From: Candidatus Latescibacterota bacterium
GTDB lineage: Bacteria; JAAXHH01; JACQVL01
Direction: 5' to 3'
Assembly (NCBI GenBank): GCA_016209865.1
Contig: JACQVL010000109.1
Location: forward strand, 1 to 20,177
Length of the DNA stretch: 20,177 nucleotides
The notes under the pieces were generated by a model. That model was given only the letters and a program-made list of their open reading frames with translations. It was not told the origin of the DNA and did not search any database. Shown here piece after piece: positions 13,842 to 20,177 of the stretch (position 1 is its first letter; each line of letters starts with the position of its first letter). The position numbers and the translations under genes are program-made.

Positions 13842-14414
13842 ATGAGCCAGGACCAGCCCAGTGATGCCGAGCTGATCGAAGCACACCGGCATGGGAGCGC
13901 CACTGCGTTGATGCAACTGTGGTTGCGGTACGACAGCCTGGTGTACGGGATCGCGCACAGTCTCGTCCGGCAGCGCGAGGCGGCGGAAGACATCCGGCAA
14001 GAGGTGTTCCTGAAGATGTATCAGGGGTTAGCCCGCTTACAGGACGCCACGAAATTTTCGAACTGGTTGCACACCATCACCCACAACACCGGAAAATCCT
14101 GGCTCCGCCGTCAGCGGACGACCGTCCCGGTCGACTCCCTCGCCGCCGACGAGCATCCGACGGCTTCCTTCGCCGCCGACCTTGAACAGCGCGAACAGCG
14201 GACGGCCCTGCGGCGCATGATCGATCAGCTCCCGGTCGAGTACCGGACCGTCGTCGAGCTCCACTACTTTGAGGGTCAGCGCATCATGCACATCGCCGCA
14301 TTCCTCGGCCTCTCCGAGGCGACAGTCAAATGGCGGCTGTACAGAGCGCGAGACATCCTCCAGCGAGCCGCGAAACTCGCGGGCTATGAGGTTCCTGAAC
14401 AACCTGAGCGATGA
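13842..14414 (+). CDS. ECF-type RNA polymerase sigma factor
   Basis: 190 residues; the ATG has GGAG about nine bases upstream. Region 2 (about 24-90) includes AAEDIRQEVFLKMY, the core-binding/-10 helix, and KFSNWLHTITHN. Region 4 (about 125-172) has LPVEYRTVVELHYFEG followed by the helix-turn-helix IAAFLGLSEATVKWRLYRAR. No region 1 or 3 is present, so it is an extracytoplasmic-function type of standard length. The upstream 115 bases after smc are pyrimidine-rich with a TATAGA, but I see no firm promoter. The next gene starts inside or just after its stop, so its product is the natural candidate regulator of this sigma factor. The promoter it recognises is unknown. Confidence 0.92.
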   Translation: MSQDQPSDAELIEAHRHGSATALMQLWLRYDSLVYGIAHSLVRQREAAEDIRQEVFLKMYQGLARLQDATKFSNWLHTITHNTGKSWLRRQRTTVPVDSLAADEHPTASFAADLEQREQRTALRRMIDQLPVEYRTVVELHYFEGQRIMHIAAFLGLSEATVKWRLYRARDILQRAAKLAGYEVPEQPER

Positions 14415-14420
14415 AAGGAG
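14414..14420 (+). promoter_or_regulatory. Ribosome binding site deciding the start of the sigma-linked gene
   Basis: AAAGGAG overlaps the last base of the sigma factor stop and stands eight bases before ATG 14429. An earlier ATG at 14411 (ATGA overlap) lies upstream of this site and lacks one, so 14429 is preferred. Confidence 0.7.
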
Positions 14421-14428
14421 TGATTCCC

Positions 14429-15127
14429 ATGACGATGAACATCAACACCCTGATCAAACTCTTGAAGAACTTTCAGGAGGAACTGCACGTGTGTATGGAC
14501 CACAAGAACCGTGAGGGAACAGTGAGTGGAGGCGTCATAGGCAAGCCAGACCCTATTCTGCTTGGTGATTTCATCGTGGAGGCATACAACAATTACTTAA
14601 CCGCTGCCAAAGCGTGCTGCGATCATCCCCTCATTCAGACACTCTCGCCAGTCGAGAAGCTGGATGAAGCTACCGGGATTGCCGATACAACAAGGGTCGG
14701 GAGTCATCCCCGGTTGCAGAAGATGCACGAAGTCGCCTTAGCGACCCGGCAATTGGTGACCTGCTTAGAGCAGGCGATCCAGACAGGCCAGGCGGGTACC
14801 TACAGTGAGACGATCGGAGTGATGGCCTTGTTAGAGAGCCTGGGCGATAACCTCCGACACCTCGAACGAGATATCGCAGACGCGAAGCTCACGGGAAGAC
14901 ACGTCGGGGACGATGAGTGGCGTGAAGCGGCCCGCCCGTTGCTGGATGCGTACAACCAGTATGTGAATATCCTCCAGGAACAGACCGAGGACCCGGTCCT
15001 CCGGAAGCTGTTTCGCCCGCTGGAACCGGACGAGGCGCGGGGGTACAGCTATCTCCTCTCCCAGGTGAAACTGGCCCAGACGGGGTTGCTCACCTATCTG
15101 CGCAAGACGGCTGAACGGCAAGAATGA
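14429..15127 (+). CDS. Unrecognised helical protein with internal duplication, coupled to the sigma factor
   Basis: 232 residues, predicted all-helical, with no signal peptide, no membrane helix and no zinc anti-sigma motif (H-x3-C-x2-C). It contains two related halves: about 46-112 (EAYNNYLTAAKACCDHPLIQ, then TLSPVEKLDEA) and about 169-228 (DAYNQYVNILQEQTEDPVLR, then KLFRPLEPDEA), each followed by a Leu-rich helix. Between them lies a helical linker with LLESLGDNLRHLERDI. I do not recognise the family. Its position fourteen bases after an ECF sigma gene suggests a cytoplasmic partner, perhaps a non-classical anti-sigma factor or effector, but this is inference from context only. It is followed by the AT-rich BlaI promoter, so the operon probably ends here. 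Confidence 0.85.
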   Translation: MTMNINTLIKLLKNFQEELHVCMDHKNREGTVSGGVIGKPDPILLGDFIVEAYNNYLTAAKACCDHPLIQTLSPVEKLDEATGIADTTRVGSHPRLQKMHEVALATRQLVTCLEQAIQTGQAGTYSETIGVMALLESLGDNLRHLERDIADAKLTGRHVGDDEWREAARPLLDAYNQYVNILQEQTEDPVLRKLFRPLEPDEARGYSYLLSQVKLAQTGLLTYLRKTAERQE

Positions 15128-15165: not shown

Positions 15166-15194
15166 TTGACACTACGAAACGTTTCGTATATATT
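15166..15194 (+). promoter_or_regulatory. Sigma70-type promoter of the BlaI/M56-HEAT operon
   Basis: TTGACA at 15166-15171, a 17-base spacer and TATATT at 15189-15194. The spacer is almost wholly a 16-bp palindrome, so a repressor bound there would block RNA polymerase. GGAGG at 15233-15237 precedes the repressor ATG by seven bases. Confidence 0.8.
15173..15188. promoter_or_regulatory. Operator 1, perfect palindrome TACGAAACGTTTCGTA
   Basis: A perfect 16-bp dyad exactly between the -35 and -10 boxes. By position it is the expected site of the BlaI-type repressor encoded next. Confidence 0.8.
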
Positions 15195-15195
15195 G

Positions 15196-15211
15196 TACGA
15201 AAATCTTCGTA
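15196..15211. promoter_or_regulatory. Operator 2, TACGAAAATCTTCGTA
   Basis: A second dyad with the same TACGAA/TTCGTA half-sites, immediately after the -10 and over the probable transcription start; its centre is 23 bases from that of operator 1. BlaI/MecI-type regulators usually bind paired dyads as dimers. Confidence 0.75.
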
Positions 15212-15244
15212 TCAAAAATTATCTCCCCAACCGGAGGCTGCTGC

Positions 15245-15634
15245 ATGTCTCAGATGAACGTGCCCCTGCCGACCGATGCCGAATTAGCGATCCTTCAGGT
15301 GCTCTGGGCACGCGGGCCGTGTACCGTCCGCGACGTCTATGAGCAACTCAGCCAGGATCGACCGATCGGCTACACCACCGTCTTGAAGCTGCTCCAGATC
15401 ATGACCGACAAGGGCCTGGTCGTCCGTGACGAGTCGCAGCGCGCTCATGTCTACGAGGCACGCGCGGCAGAGGCGGAGACCCAGACGCGGCTGGTGGATG
15501 ATCTGTTGAGCCGGGCGTTCGCCGGCTCCGCCGAGAAGCTGGTGCTCCGGGCCTTGACGGCGCAGCGGACGTCCCCGGAAGAATTAGAACGGATCCGAAC
15601 ACTCCTCGATGAGTTGAAAGGAGGCCGGTCATGA
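15245..15634 (+). CDS. BlaI/MecI family transcriptional repressor
   Basis: 129 residues, the usual size. The winged helix (about 8-70) shows LPTDAELAILQVLWARGPCT, VRDVYEQLSQ, IGYTTVLKLLQIMTDKGLV and the wing RAHVYEA. The C-terminal dimerisation part has LLSRAFAGSAEKLVLRAL, the region where BlaI and MecI are cut by the cognate protease. It should repress its own operon by binding the two dyads in the promoter at 15173-15211, and be inactivated by the M56 protease that follows. The stop overlaps the next start (ATGA), so repressor and protease are translationally coupled, as in classical bla/mec and other BlaI-M56 pairs. There is no beta-lactamase or PBP gene nearby, so the inducer is probably not simply a beta-lactam. 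Confidence 0.93.
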   Translation: MSQMNVPLPTDAELAILQVLWARGPCTVRDVYEQLSQDRPIGYTTVLKLLQIMTDKGLVVRDESQRAHVYEARAAEAETQTRLVDDLLSRAFAGSAEKLVLRALTAQRTSPEELERIRTLLDELKGGRS

Positions 15635-17424
15635 CTCTCATTCTCTCGCTCCTCTCCCCGCGTGTCATGCAGGCGCTCGGCTGGGCGCTGGTGCATTTCG
15701 TCTGGCAGGGCGTCTTGATCGCCGGAGTGCTGGCGTGCAGTTTACGTCTGCTGCGGGATCGTTCCGCCACCATCCGCTATCTGCTCTGCTGCGGCGCGCT
15801 CTGGATGATGCTGTGCTTGCCCATCATCACCGGCGGACTCGTCTATGAGGCCACGGTGCCCCGGCCGCTCGACACAGGGAACCAGAATCCTCTCACAGAG
15901 GTTGAAACGACTCCGGGCGCCCCGCTGCTCCCGAACCTCACCGCCACACCGGTTGAAGACCTCTTCTCCATACCACGGGATGAACGCTTCGCCGTCCGAT
16001 TCGACTGGCTGATGCCGTGGATGGTCTCCGCCTGGCTCATCGGCGTGGCTTTCCTGTCGATCCGCCAGGCGGGCGGGTGGGTGTATCTGCAGCGACTCAC
16101 ACGCCGGGCGGGTCTGCCGGTCGCCCAGCCCTGGCAGCAGAGCCTGCACAGGTTGATGCAGGAGATGGGCATCGCCCGGCCGGTCCGCCTGCTCGAATCC
16201 GCACGGGTACAGGTGCCGATCGTGATCGGATGGCTGCGGCCGGCGGTGCTGATCCCCATGAGCATCCTCACCGGCCTCACCCCTCAGCAGGTCGACGCGA
16301 TTCTGGCTCACGAACTGGCGCACATCCGCCGTCACGACTATCTGGTGAACCTGCTGCAGACGCTCGTCGAGACGCTCCTGTTCTACCATCCGGCGGTCTG
16401 GTGGGTCTCAGGCCGGGTTCGTCAGGAACGGGAGTACTGCTGCGATGACCTGGCAGTCGCGGTCTGCGGCGACCGTGTGGCGTATGCCCGGGCGTTGACC
16501 GATTTGGAATCCCTCCGGACGGCCGACCATGCGCTGGCGCCGGCGGCCACCGGCGGTTCCTTATTGGATCGTATTCGCCGCGTGATCGAAGGGCCGTCCG
16601 CATCACACAGCCGATCGGGACACTACGCGACGAGCATCGTGGCCGTGATCCTCGTCAGCCTCTTCATCATCGGAATCTGGCTGCCGTGGCCTTATACGAG
16701 CACCGTGGCCGCACGGGTGTTTAGCCGCGGCGACGAGTCGGGACCGCAGACCGAACGGACGGCAGACCAGGCCGCTGGCCGTCCTGCTCAGAAAGTGACC
16801 CCCAAAGCAGCGAAAACGCAGAGCACACCAGACACAACGAACTCGTCCCGTGCGGACGTTGAGGTTCAAAAGCAGGCGCTCTTTGCCCTCAGCCAGTCGC
16901 CGCAAGGCATTCAAAAGCTGATGGAGGTTGCGCAGTCCCTTCAAAACCGTGAACTCCGCAAACAGGCGATCTTCTGGCTGAGCCAGCGAGGCGGGGATGA
17001 GGCAGGCTCCACGCTCAATCAGATTTTTAGGGAGGACTCCGATCCCGAGATACGGAAGCAGATACTGTTTGCCTACACACAGATGTCGCGTGAGGCAGGG
17101 ATCCCACGCTTGATTGAGGCTGCAAAGACTGAACGGGATCGTGAGGTAAGGAAACAGGCGATCTTCTGGCTGAGTCAACGGGGTGGGGATGAGGCGCTCA
17201 GCACTCTCGATCAGATTTTCCGGGATAACCCGGACCGAGAGATGCGAAAGCATATTCTGTTTACCTATATTCAGGTGCCCCACCATGAAGGTATCCCGCG
17301 CCTCATCGAGGTTGCGAAAAATGCGGATGAAGATGCGGACGTGCGCAAGCAGGCGATCTTCTGGTTAGGCCAGAGCGACGACCCTCGCGCCCGTGATGTG
17401 TTGATCGACATCATCCAACGTTAA
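15631..17424 (+). CDS. M56 (BlaR1-like) membrane metalloprotease with C-terminal HEAT repeats
   Basis: 597 residues; the ATG is preceded by AAAGGAGG six bases upstream. Membrane helices lie at about 12-40, 47-70 and 122-145. The cytoplasmic gluzincin domain (about 150-300) has HELAH at 227-231 and the third ligand E268 in REYCCDD. A fourth helix (about 333-352) leads to a low-complexity Lys/Thr/Ser linker (about 365-407), then six HEAT-like repeats of about 31 residues (408-597) with the consensus VRKQAIFWLxQ. In BlaR1 the C-terminal domain is an extracellular penicillin sensor; here HEAT repeats occupy that place, implying a protein or peptide ligand rather than a beta-lactam. Signalling would activate the protease to cleave the BlaI repressor. 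The last repeat is nearly the same as that of the next gene product. Confidence 0.9.
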   Translation: MTLILSLLSPRVMQALGWALVHFVWQGVLIAGVLACSLRLLRDRSATIRYLLCCGALWMMLCLPIITGGLVYEATVPRPLDTGNQNPLTEVETTPGAPLLPNLTATPVEDLFSIPRDERFAVRFDWLMPWMVSAWLIGVAFLSIRQAGGWVYLQRLTRRAGLPVAQPWQQSLHRLMQEMGIARPVRLLESARVQVPIVIGWLRPAVLIPMSILTGLTPQQVDAILAHELAHIRRHDYLVNLLQTLVETLLFYHPAVWWVSGRVRQEREYCCDDLAVAVCGDRVAYARALTDLESLRTADHALAPAATGGSLLDRIRRVIEGPSASHSRSGHYATSIVAVILVSLFIIGIWLPWPYTSTVAARVFSRGDESGPQTERTADQAAGRPAQKVTPKAAKTQSTPDTTNSSRADVEVQKQALFALSQSPQGIQKLMEVAQSLQNRELRKQAIFWLSQRGGDEAGSTLNQIFREDSDPEIRKQILFAYTQMSREAGIPRLIEAAKTERDREVRKQAIFWLSQRGGDEALSTLDQIFRDNPDREMRKHILFTYIQVPHHEGIPRLIEVAKNADEDADVRKQAIFWLGQSDDPRARDVLIDIIQR

Positions 17425-17467
17425 CGGCTGGCTCCAACCGCCCCCTCTGATCCACAAGGATAGAGAT

Positions 17468-18637
17468 ATGACCACCCACAAAATACCCCCCGTCCTTCTC
17501 ATCCTGGTGTTGCTCACGACGTCATGCCTCCAGGCACAGCCGATCACCATCCATCCGGACGCCGCAGCACCGCTCGATCAGCGCTGGGCGTGGGGGATGG
17601 ACCAGGGCACACGCCAGGGTGGTCAGTCGGGATACTGGATCGGCTACAGCATCCGACGCCGCATGGGCGAACACGAGACCACAGGCACGTGGAATTCAAA
17701 GTGGGAAGACCGGACGAGCCTCTACGAACTCATCTACGGGACTCCTCCGCCGTATGCTCAGCGAAGGGAGTCCGCGGGGGTGTCTGAAGAGGAGCAGGTG
17801 CGCCAGGCGGCGCGACGGGCGCTGGATGCCCGCGAACACGACAAGAAAGACCGGCGCGAATCCAGCCAGAAGGTGTGGAAGGACATCGCTATCCTGTTCT
17901 TGTTCCGCCAGGGTTCAGTGGAGCCGGAGGACGTTGACCTTCAGACGATGTCGGTCTATTACGATCTGAGACAGCGTCCGCTGTACTGGTTGGGGACGGC
18001 CAGCGATGCCCAGAGCCTCGACCTGCTCGCGCGGGAGTATGAGAAGGTCACGACCACGCGTCTCAAAAAAGACCTCATCGGGGCTGTGGGGGTTCATCAG
18101 TCCCCCGATCGGGTGGTCCCGTTCCTGGAGCGCGTGTTGACCGGCCGAGAGGGCGACGAGGTCCGCAAGCAAGCGGCCTTCTGGTTGGGCCAGCAGGACA
18201 CCCCGCGTGCCCTGCGAATCCTGGAACGTGCCGTTCGAGAGGATCGCTCCGTCGAGGTGAGGAAGCAGGCGGTGTTCGGCATCAGTCAGCTCGACCTCGA
18301 CGAAGCGACGGACTCCTTGATCGACCTGGCGCGCCGTGCGGACGACCGGGAAGTCCAGAAGCAGGCGATCTTCTGGTTAGCGCAACGGGCTTCCACGAAG
18401 GCGGCAGACACACTCAGAAACATTGTCTACGATAAAACGGATACCGAGGTCAAGAAACAGGCGGTCTTTGCCTTGACGCAACTCCCGGATCACAATGGGG
18501 TGCCGCTCCTGATCGAGATCGCCAGAACACATCCCAACCCCGACGTGCGCAAGCAGGCGATCTTCTGGCTCGGCCAGAGCGGCGATCCGCGCGCCCTCAA
18601 TACCCTCATCGACATCGTGCAGGACAAGAGACGATAG
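17468..18637 (+). CDS. Secreted HEAT-repeat protein
   Basis: 389 residues, with AAGGA about eight bases before the ATG. A Sec signal occupies about 1-24 (PPVLLILVLLTTSCLQAQ). The Cys at 20 is preceded by TTS rather than a good lipobox, so lipoprotein status is doubtful. Residues about 25-165 form an unrecognised N-terminal domain with a Trp/Tyr/Gly-rich start (WAWGMDQG, YWIGYSIRRR) and a charged middle. From about 165 on there are HEAT-like repeats of 31 residues with E/DVRKQAxFWLGQ cores, the first clear one at 231. These match the repeats of the M56 protease C-terminus, and the final repeats agree even at DNA level. It lies 43 bases after the protease gene, in the same operon. It could be a periplasmic partner, decoy or ligand-presenting protein for the sensor; the role is inferred. 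Confidence 0.88.
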   Translation: MTTHKIPPVLLILVLLTTSCLQAQPITIHPDAAAPLDQRWAWGMDQGTRQGGQSGYWIGYSIRRRMGEHETTGTWNSKWEDRTSLYELIYGTPPPYAQRRESAGVSEEEQVRQAARRALDAREHDKKDRRESSQKVWKDIAILFLFRQGSVEPEDVDLQTMSVYYDLRQRPLYWLGTASDAQSLDLLAREYEKVTTTRLKKDLIGAVGVHQSPDRVVPFLERVLTGREGDEVRKQAAFWLGQQDTPRALRILERAVREDRSVEVRKQAVFGISQLDLDEATDSLIDLARRADDREVQKQAIFWLAQRASTKAADTLRNIVYDKTDTEVKKQAVFALTQLPDHNGVPLLIEIARTHPNPDVRKQAIFWLGQSGDPRALNTLIDIVQDKRR

Positions 18638-18686
18638 GTGGTTTGGGAATACAGGAGAGCCATATCTTTCCTCAGGAGGTCCTCTT

Positions 18687-19598
18687 ATGCAAGACAGCAT
18701 GCTCGTTGCGGTGCTCTGCAGTGTGGTGATGGTGGCATCTGTCCATGCTGCGTCACTCGATCAACCGGCGGAGAATCCGCCTGGTTGGAGTTGGTTGATC
18801 CCGCCCATGCCGATGCCGACCCCGCAGAGCGCTTGGTCGCAACGCGGCGTCATGGGCATTGCCTCTCAGACCCCGGATGGCGCCTATCTGCTGACCCTGG
18901 CATGGCAACGGGCCGAGGGGACTCGCTATCGCATCGTCGTCTTCGATCCCCGAGGGCGCCGGTACGAGCTTGACGAGCAACTGGGGACCGGCAGTGGCCT
19001 GCTGTATCTGGCCCAGTTTCGCGTCGATCCAGCGTTGCTGCCCCAGGCACAGATTCGCGCCGTGGGGGTGGAGCAGTTAACCCCGGAGGGATGGCGCATC
19101 GCCTCGCAGATCGCGGCCGAGCGGGCCCGCGCGGCCCAGATTGAAATCCTCCCATTGCCGCGGCTCAATGAACCGTATCGGTTTACTCTGACGACCGTCA
19201 ATGGGCGGCAGATTCGTGCGGAGGACTTGCACGGGTCCGTGGTCGTACTGGATTGTTGGGCGACGTGGTGTGGCCCGTGTATGGCCAAGATGCCCCAGTT
19301 GCGGGCCTCCTATGAGGCGTGGCGGCCCCACGGCTTTGAGGTCATCGGGATCAATTTTGATCAAGACTGGAACCGAGCCGTCCAAGCGCTTCAGGAATTG
19401 AACATTCCGTGGGCGCAGGTGGCAGTGCCGAACGACCGCGGAGTGCGGGAGCTCTGGTATGAGGTGTCGAGTATTCGGACATTGCCCCGCATCTTGGTGC
19501 TGGACCGCGAGGGGATTTTGCGAATGGATACGTTGAATCCCCGCGAAGCAGAGGCCGTCATTCACCAGTTGTTGGCTCCAAGCCCGAAGCCAGAATGA
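18687..19598 (+). CDS. Secreted TlpA/ResA-like thioredoxin-fold protein with extra N-terminal domain
   Basis: 303 residues; AGGAGG at 18674-18679 stands seven bases before the ATG. A Sec signal covers about 1-22 (LVAVLCSVVMVASVHA). Residues about 23-155 form a beta-rich domain that I do not recognise (ending near EILPLPRLNEPYRFTL). Residues about 160-300 are a thioredoxin domain: VVVLDCWATWCGPC with the redox pair C195 and C198, VIGINFDQD, and the cis-proline TLP before RILVLD. TlpA/ResA-like proteins keep exported cysteines reduced, for example in cytochrome c maturation. It follows the secreted HEAT protein by 49 bases and probably belongs to the BlaI-controlled operon, which would make the response an envelope redox or folding response. 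Confidence 0.9.
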   Translation: MQDSMLVAVLCSVVMVASVHAASLDQPAENPPGWSWLIPPMPMPTPQSAWSQRGVMGIASQTPDGAYLLTLAWQRAEGTRYRIVVFDPRGRRYELDEQLGTGSGLLYLAQFRVDPALLPQAQIRAVGVEQLTPEGWRIASQIAAERARAAQIEILPLPRLNEPYRFTLTTVNGRQIRAEDLHGSVVVLDCWATWCGPCMAKMPQLRASYEAWRPHGFEVIGINFDQDWNRAVQALQELNIPWAQVAVPNDRGVRELWYEVSSIRTLPRILVLDREGILRMDTLNPREAEAVIHQLLAPSPKPE

Positions 19599-19905: not shown

Positions 19906-20177
19906 ATGGCAGAAACCCGCCGTTTTGTGCATATATCCCTTGTTCTGACGTCCTGGATGCTCACCCTTGCCACGCCTCTTCCCGCCCAGGAACCGGCGAA
20001 GAGTCATCCCGAAAAGACGATGACGGCCGTTCGGATCAACCCAAGACCGCCGGTCCTCGACGGCGTTCTCGACGATGAGGTCTGGCAGTCCGCCCCGAGC
20101 TTCACCGGGTTCACTCAGAAAGACCCTAAAGAAGGAGAGCCGGCCACGGAGAAGACGACCGTGCAACTCATCTACGA
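19906..20177 (+). CDS. DUF5916-type protein with CBM9-like N-terminal domain (3'-truncated)
   Basis: Ninety complete codons are visible before the window ends. The ATG at 19906 has GAGGAGG (19892-19898) seven bases upstream, an almost ideal site. Residues 1-28 form a Sec signal ending near PLPAQEP. The mature part begins with the characteristic VRINPRPPVLDGVLDDEVWQ, followed by FTGFTQKDPKEGEPATEKT and VQLIY, the start of the carbohydrate-binding family 9-like domain found at the N-terminus of DUF5916 proteins. Full members usually run several hundred residues with a C-terminal beta-barrel-like part and are thought to be envelope proteins of unknown substrate. It follows the BlaI operon after 307 bases and is probably separately transcribed. 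Confidence 0.8.
   Translation, partial: MAETRRFVHISLVLTSWMLTLATPLPAQEPAKSHPEKTMTAVRINPRPPVLDGVLDDEVWQSAPSFTGFTQKDPKEGEPATEKTTVQLIY

Follow-up and report, generated by a model that had tools for sequence, protein, structure and literature searches.

BlaR1-type proteases are known mainly as Gram-positive antibiotic sensors, and the closest described systems to the one reported here are BlaI/BlaR1 and MecI/MecR1 of Staphylococcus aureus and Bacillus licheniformis. We analyzed a stretch of 20,177 nucleotides from a Candidatus Latescibacterota bacterium (contig JACQVL010000109.1 of assembly GCA_016209865.1, here called the window), which belongs to a genome of 3.75 Mb that is 83% complete. An operon at positions 15166 to 19598 of the window encodes a BlaI/MecI-type repressor, an M56 protease with a tail of HEAT repeats, an exported HEAT protein that we call HEATsec, and an exported thioredoxin. 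The operon is a real variant of the BlaI/BlaR1 kind. It shares with BlaI/BlaR1 and MecI/MecR1 the repressor family, the HExxH and ExxxD motifs 41 residues apart, the BlaR1 fold, a predicted N-out/C-out topology, and the adjacency of repressor and protease genes. It is unlike them in having a HEAT tail for the penicillin-binding sensor, another operator, and an extra exported HEAT gene, in lacking a linked gene for a beta-lactamase or for the penicillin-binding protein (PBP) PBP2a, and in scoring below the BlaR1 cut-off. The analysis was computational; besides the gene content, operators, protease type, and predicted topology, it yielded an exchange of switches, a one-chain fusion, and repeated HEAT acquisition. 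Our reading, which we consider probable, is that this is a self-contained BlaR1-like signaling operon with the HEAT tail and HEATsec as its sensing pair.

Layout of the operon

An initial annotation, made from the letters alone, had recognized a BlaI/M56 module with a HEAT-repeat sensor, a secreted HEAT partner, and a thioredoxin, and Pfam matches place all four genes at the positions it gave. The close spacing behind one promoter that it described is also found: the promoter starts at 15166, where its range began, the BlaI and M56 genes overlap in ATGA, and the next two intergenic gaps measure 43 and 49 nt. As it had stated, no beta-lactamase or PBP gene lies nearby, none being found among the window proteins scanned. 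The features of the operon are as follows.

15166 to 15194, plus strand: sigma-70-type promoter TTGACA-17-TATATT (11 of 12 consensus positions; a consensus match only)
15173 to 15188, no strand assigned: putative BlaI operator 1, palindrome TACGAAACGTTTCGTA, within the -35/-10 spacer (exact match)
15196 to 15211, no strand assigned: putative BlaI operator 2, palindrome TACGAAAATCTTCGTA, directly 3' of the -10 (exact match, 23 nt from operator 1)
15245 to 15634, plus strand: BlaI/MecI-type repressor, 129 amino acids (PF03965, 97.6 bits)
15631 to 17424, plus strand: M56 protease with HEAT tail, 597 amino acids (PF05569, 115 bits; HEAT_2, E = 1e-22)
16309 to 16323, plus strand: HELAH zinc-protease motif, residues 227 to 231 (H, E, and H invariant in 64 relatives)
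16432 to 16446, plus strand: ExxxD motif EYCCD with the third zinc ligand, residues 268 to 272 (41 residues after HELAH)
16627 to 16683, plus strand: fourth transmembrane helix, residues 333 to 351 (hydropathy; helix 330 to 350 in the model)
16834 to 17421, plus strand: predicted extracytoplasmic HEAT tail, six hairpins, residues 402 to 597, no cysteine (AlphaFold model and sequence)
17468 to 18637, plus strand: HEATsec, exported HEAT protein of 389 amino acids with a signal peptide (HEAT_2, E = 2.5e-44; N-terminus)
17534 to 18055, plus strand: HEATsec N-terminal domain, about residues 23 to 196 (profile matches in homologues)
18687 to 19598, plus strand: exported TlpA/ResA-like thioredoxin (PF00578/PF08534, AhpC-TSA/Redoxin; CGPC at residue 195)

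A BlaR1-type protease with a HEAT tail

The M56 protein is predicted to work like BlaR1, yet it is not a BlaR1. It scores 89.9 bits against the NCBIfam BlaR1 equivalog, below the 400-bit cut-off, and it has no Pfam match to a penicillin-binding sensor domain, carrying HEAT repeats instead. The intact HELAH and downstream Glu of the initial annotation are present, HELAH from residue 227 and EYCCD from residue 268, and H227, E228, H231, E268, and D272 are invariant across the 64 relatives. The corresponding residues H201 and E242 of S. aureus BlaR1 are likewise 41 residues apart (PMC9834060). In an AlphaFold model built with 64 sequences (mean predicted local distance difference test [pLDDT] 84.9, predicted template modeling score 0.60), the protease part superposes on BlaR1 with a Z of 18.6 and a root mean square deviation of 3.9 over 247 residues at 15% identity. 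A disordered linker precedes the tail in the same model, and the tail folds into six HEAT hairpins (residues 407 to 596, nearly all at pLDDT >90), in agreement with the six repeats first counted. Among solved structures, the HEAT parts come closest to the alphaReps, designed HEAT-repeat proteins that bind other proteins.

An N-out, C-out arrangement, which is also the topology reported for BlaR1 (PMC9834060), is predicted from four hydrophobic helices whose basic loops lie on the side expected from the positive-inside pattern. The HEAT tail is very probably extracytoplasmic, as is also supported by a fusion protein from a member of the Gemmatimonadota (G202) in which HEATsec, alone a signal-peptide protein, sits behind the last transmembrane helix. 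The placement of the tail outside the cytoplasm, originally argued from BlaR1 biology, thus gains from the four predicted helices, their charge pattern, the BlaR1 fold match, and the position of this fusion after the fourth helix.

The repressor is matched by PF03965 over residues 10 to 123 (profile positions 2 to 115 of 115), and MecI (1sd6) aligns with residues 11 to 122, i.e., at full length, so that the winged helix and dimerization domain of the family are both represented.

Two further M56 genes of the same genome lie beside BlaI-like genes. In one (L003 on G000:C175, 1414 to 3318), the tail is built from GVTPEFI-type repeats, so that a protease of this type bears another kind of repeat sensor; the other (L001 on G000:C44, 1345 to 3351) has a tail with neither HEAT nor GVTP repeats, and its ending resembles a small outer-membrane barrel.

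An operator of the BlaI class

Known BlaI, MecI, and CopY operators are of the TACA-N2-TGTA type. That type is not present here; in its place stands the palindrome TACGAA-N4-TTCGTA, and the two sites in the window are its only exact copies in the genome. In a census of BlaI-M56 loci belonging to the window's M56 class (77 in all, with the window counted among them), a site was scored if it lay no more than 250 bp from blaI and had no or one mismatch. The motif was upstream of blaI in 56 of the 77, exact in 41 and in tandem in 44, with the tandem copies mostly 21 to 23 nt apart; the motif is therefore likely the operator of the whole BlaI class and not peculiar to HEAT systems. In a divergent M56 class, any match was found in only 1 of 12 loci. 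The genomes that hold a HEAT version of the operon or its relic (G014, G059 to G063, and G202) have exact copies only at the blaI promoter. A tandem of TACGAA-N4-TTCGTT and TACGAA-N4-TTCGTA, 21 to 23 nt apart, was seen upstream of most BlaI-M56 operons in several phyla (L015 to L094).

If BlaI uses only such sites, the operon would be its own main target, and with no other exact operator copy in this genome it probably regulates chiefly itself. A wider BlaI regulon was looked for and not retained: beyond the absence of further exact sites, matches with two mismatches numbered 29, against 35 in the control.

The same tandem operators, mostly with this spacing, are found in uncharacterized BlaI-M56 systems of Acidobacteriota, Planctomycetota, Verrucomicrobiota, and Gemmatimonadota, which share the M56 class with the window at about 37 to 49% identity over the M56 part. 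Unlike the window, most of these systems have tails in which no HEAT repeats were detected, and exported HEAT genes are not linked to them. For many such systems, TACGAA-N4-TTCGTA could be used to map regulons.

HEATsec is shared with ECF sigma factor loci

The N-terminal domain of HEATsec adds to the initial description, which had given only the repeats. Clear matches to it (50 to 79 bits) are confined to the second genes of HEAT pairs, to HEATsec genes that stand singly, and to the G202 fusion with M56. The cysteine at residue 20, in the signal peptide, makes HEATsec a possible lipoprotein. A single-sequence model gives about seven hairpins, its first 174 residues being unreliable.

HEATsec-like proteins (E below 1e-25) are present in 39 of 297 sampled genomes of Acidobacteriota, the best of them 43 to 44% identical over 340 to 350 residues, N-terminal domain included. 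In nearly all loci read in detail, the HEATsec-like gene comes second in a pair of neighboring HEAT genes, and the first HEAT proteins, in those pairs scanned with Pfam, carry tetratricopeptide repeats (TPRs). Upstream of most such pairs, where the contig is long enough, are genes for an extracytoplasmic function (ECF) sigma factor and a protein with one transmembrane helix, which in the clearest locus passes the zf-HC2 cut-off. Similar loci occur in Gemmatimonadota, and contig C270 of the window's own genome (L231, 4699 to 8537) encodes a one-helix anti-sigma-like protein, a TPR-HEAT protein, and a HEATsec-like protein. The window shares with these loci a second gene that resembles a HEATsec orthologue, N-terminal domain included, and a HEAT protein encoded before it, here the M56 tail. 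The ECF loci differ in that the switch is a sigma factor with a one-helix anti-sigma factor and in having a free, TPR-bearing protein as the first of the HEAT pair; in the window, no such sigma and anti-sigma genes belong to the operon, and the HEAT genes stand under a promoter of their own.

Because HEAT pairs of the HEATsec type exist elsewhere without M56, on ECF/anti-sigma switches, the BlaI/M56 operon looks like a case in which the transmembrane switch was swapped under a conserved kind of HEAT pair. The pair resembles an older module that is coupled elsewhere to ECF sigma/anti-sigma switches. A clear descent of the M56 tail from the first HEAT gene of the ECF pairs was considered and not retained. 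The tail matches the first gene better in the Gemmatimonadota pairs and, of six close Acidobacteriota pairs, in five, with one tie; more distant pairs score the other way round.

Searches of the open-access literature for M56 or BlaR1 with HEAT, for ECF with HEAT, and for the operator motif returned nothing relevant, although papers on them may exist, and the M56-HEAT architecture may well be listed automatically by domain databases already. What is new is that HEATsec is common to two switches, together with the switch exchange, the one-chain fusion, and the operator. A type of switch that normally detects penicillin here carries a protein-binding scaffold, in a little-sampled phylum and with a partner common to a sigma-factor switch. 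It thereby becomes testable whether M56 proteases serve generally as envelope receptors whose sensors can be exchanged, and the findings point to a widespread, unstudied mode of envelope sensing.

Relatives, fusions, and the role of the HEAT pair

The linkage of neighbors, which the initial annotation had left to comparison with related genomes, recurs for BlaI, M56, and HEATsec and, in the operons examined, not for the thioredoxin. In G014, from another family of the same order, blaI is intact (62% identity) behind two exact operators, and the first 27 residues of M56 are joined to residues 172 to 342 of HEATsec; with the gene order alike, the locus is a decayed relic of the operon. G201 and G240 have BlaI, M56-HEAT, and an exported HEAT protein as consecutive genes, with an M56 of a divergent class. 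In G202, a single protein of 1006 residues comprises M56 with its last transmembrane helix, a complete HEATsec (query residues 22 to 381, 33% identity), and more HEAT repeats. This one-chain fusion lends indirect support to a coupling between HEAT tail and HEATsec. When HEAT was mapped as a label on a tree of 105 M56 domains, eight changes were required, and well-supported branches force at least five; HEAT tails were thus probably acquired by M56 proteins more than once; a single origin of all M56-HEAT fusions is incompatible with this tree, in which the window's own place is not settled and one HEAT case (L087) is weak.

The tails of related M56 proteins vary greatly in length; the signal may therefore act on the membrane part alone, with the HEAT tail a mere spacer or dimerization scaffold. 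We regard this as quite unlikely, as the repeated gain of HEAT tails and the fusion in G202 of a complete HEATsec with its N-terminal domain argue for a specific role.

Under the reading that we favor, BlaI would occupy the two operators over the operon promoter and repress it, and the M56 protein would have its zinc protease on the cytoplasmic side and its HEAT tail on the envelope side. Tail and HEATsec would act as a sensing pair for the state of an envelope protein or peptide. A change in their binding partner would alter the protease, which would inactivate BlaI, and more sensor, more HEATsec, and thioredoxin would be made. HEATsec, with the TlpA-like protein and perhaps the product of the next gene, would be the main output and close a feedback loop, given that the genome has no other exact operator. 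In this scheme we infer repression, BlaI cleavage, HEAT-HEAT contact, and an envelope protein or peptide signal.

Several observations speak against it. The cleavage-site residues N101-F102 of S. aureus are not conserved, the window BlaI having R-A; the surrounding LV-x-x-AL pattern is conserved in its BlaI class. As the genome is only 83% complete, additional operators could be missing. The operons of five closely related fusions from Gemmatimonadota (L017, L019, L034, L047, and L076) comprise BlaI and M56-HEAT and lack HEATsec, which therefore need not be encoded in cis.

HEATsec might instead be a negative regulator, resting on the HEAT tail and keeping the protease off, with a logic like that of RseB: unfolded or surplus envelope proteins would draw HEATsec off and set the protease on, and newly made HEATsec would restore silence. 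Negative regulators encoded in the operon are usual at ECF loci; the second HEAT genes come after anti-sigma genes there, and HEATsec is a product of the very operon that it would silence, with no other exact operator in the genome. Fused to M56 in G202, however, HEATsec is unable to leave, and several M56-HEAT fusions do without it in the operon. We hold this alternative to be possible but on the unlikely side.

The thioredoxin

The initial annotation had counted the thioredoxin among the members of the system; it is the weakest of them, and its place as a conserved member is not supported. Its gene follows HEATsec after 49 nt, with a strong ribosome-binding site, and is probably cotranscribed with it. 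A role as effector, with the redox state of the envelope sensed through disulfides in the HEAT proteins, could be read from this arrangement. However, there is no cysteine in the HEAT tail, and the only one in HEATsec lies within the signal peptide, which makes it very unlikely that the HEAT pair is the object of a redox switch. In 59 genomes, relatives of the thioredoxin match its TlpA domain only and none match its N-terminal domain, and it is absent from all other HEAT operons examined; we therefore did not keep it as a conserved operon member. A redox effector is highly improbable overall and, as regards the HEAT proteins, largely refuted.

DUF5916 neighbors and other genes

Beyond the thioredoxin, the contig end cuts one further gene.

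19906 to 20177, plus strand: DUF5916/CBM9-type exported protein, start only (similar to the DUF5916 protein of C270, E = 3e-9)

This gene is a candidate client or output, and its membership in the operon is putative. DUF5916/CBM9-like genes adjoin both HEAT loci of the window's genome (here, and at 617 to 3274 of L231) and several elsewhere. At a distance of up to 3 kb, they accompany 9 of 35 HEAT loci, ECF and M56 switches taken together, and 1 of 75 HEAT-less BlaI-M56 loci (Fisher p about 1e-4), and genomes hold only about 4 to 14 copies. The test was post hoc, some HEAT loci are orthologous to one another, and most controls come from other phyla, for which reasons the association is a lead and not a result. 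It would fit a HEAT tail and HEATsec that bind a partner outer-membrane protein, e.g., of the DUF5916/CBM9 type, and report its assembly or amount. Besides the weaknesses of the test, the gene is absent at 26 of the 35 loci and none was found behind an exact operator, and we consider such a partner unlikely. More broadly, though tentatively, the exported HEAT pair may be a general envelope sensor for two unrelated switches, with an envelope protein as ligand, possibly the neighboring DUF5916/CBM9 protein. The initial interpretation, which stands in part, had been silent on these neighbors, on the operators, and on the ECF/anti-sigma form of the HEAT pair.

Upstream of the operon (13842 to 15127), an ECF sigma gene is followed, with an overlap of 4 bases, by a gene for a soluble protein of 238 amino acids, which has no transmembrane helix and no Pfam or NCBIfam match and is unlike an anti-sigma factor. 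The ECF gene (13842 to 14414) was considered as a part of the system and set aside, its neighbor not being anti-sigma-like and neither gene being found in the G014 relic locus. Toward the start of the window, two adjacent proteins without a Pfam match (75 to 908 and 1034 to 2101) have stretches in common, e.g., HALET-QCM-ERR-GGETGV, and are apparently a tandem duplication.

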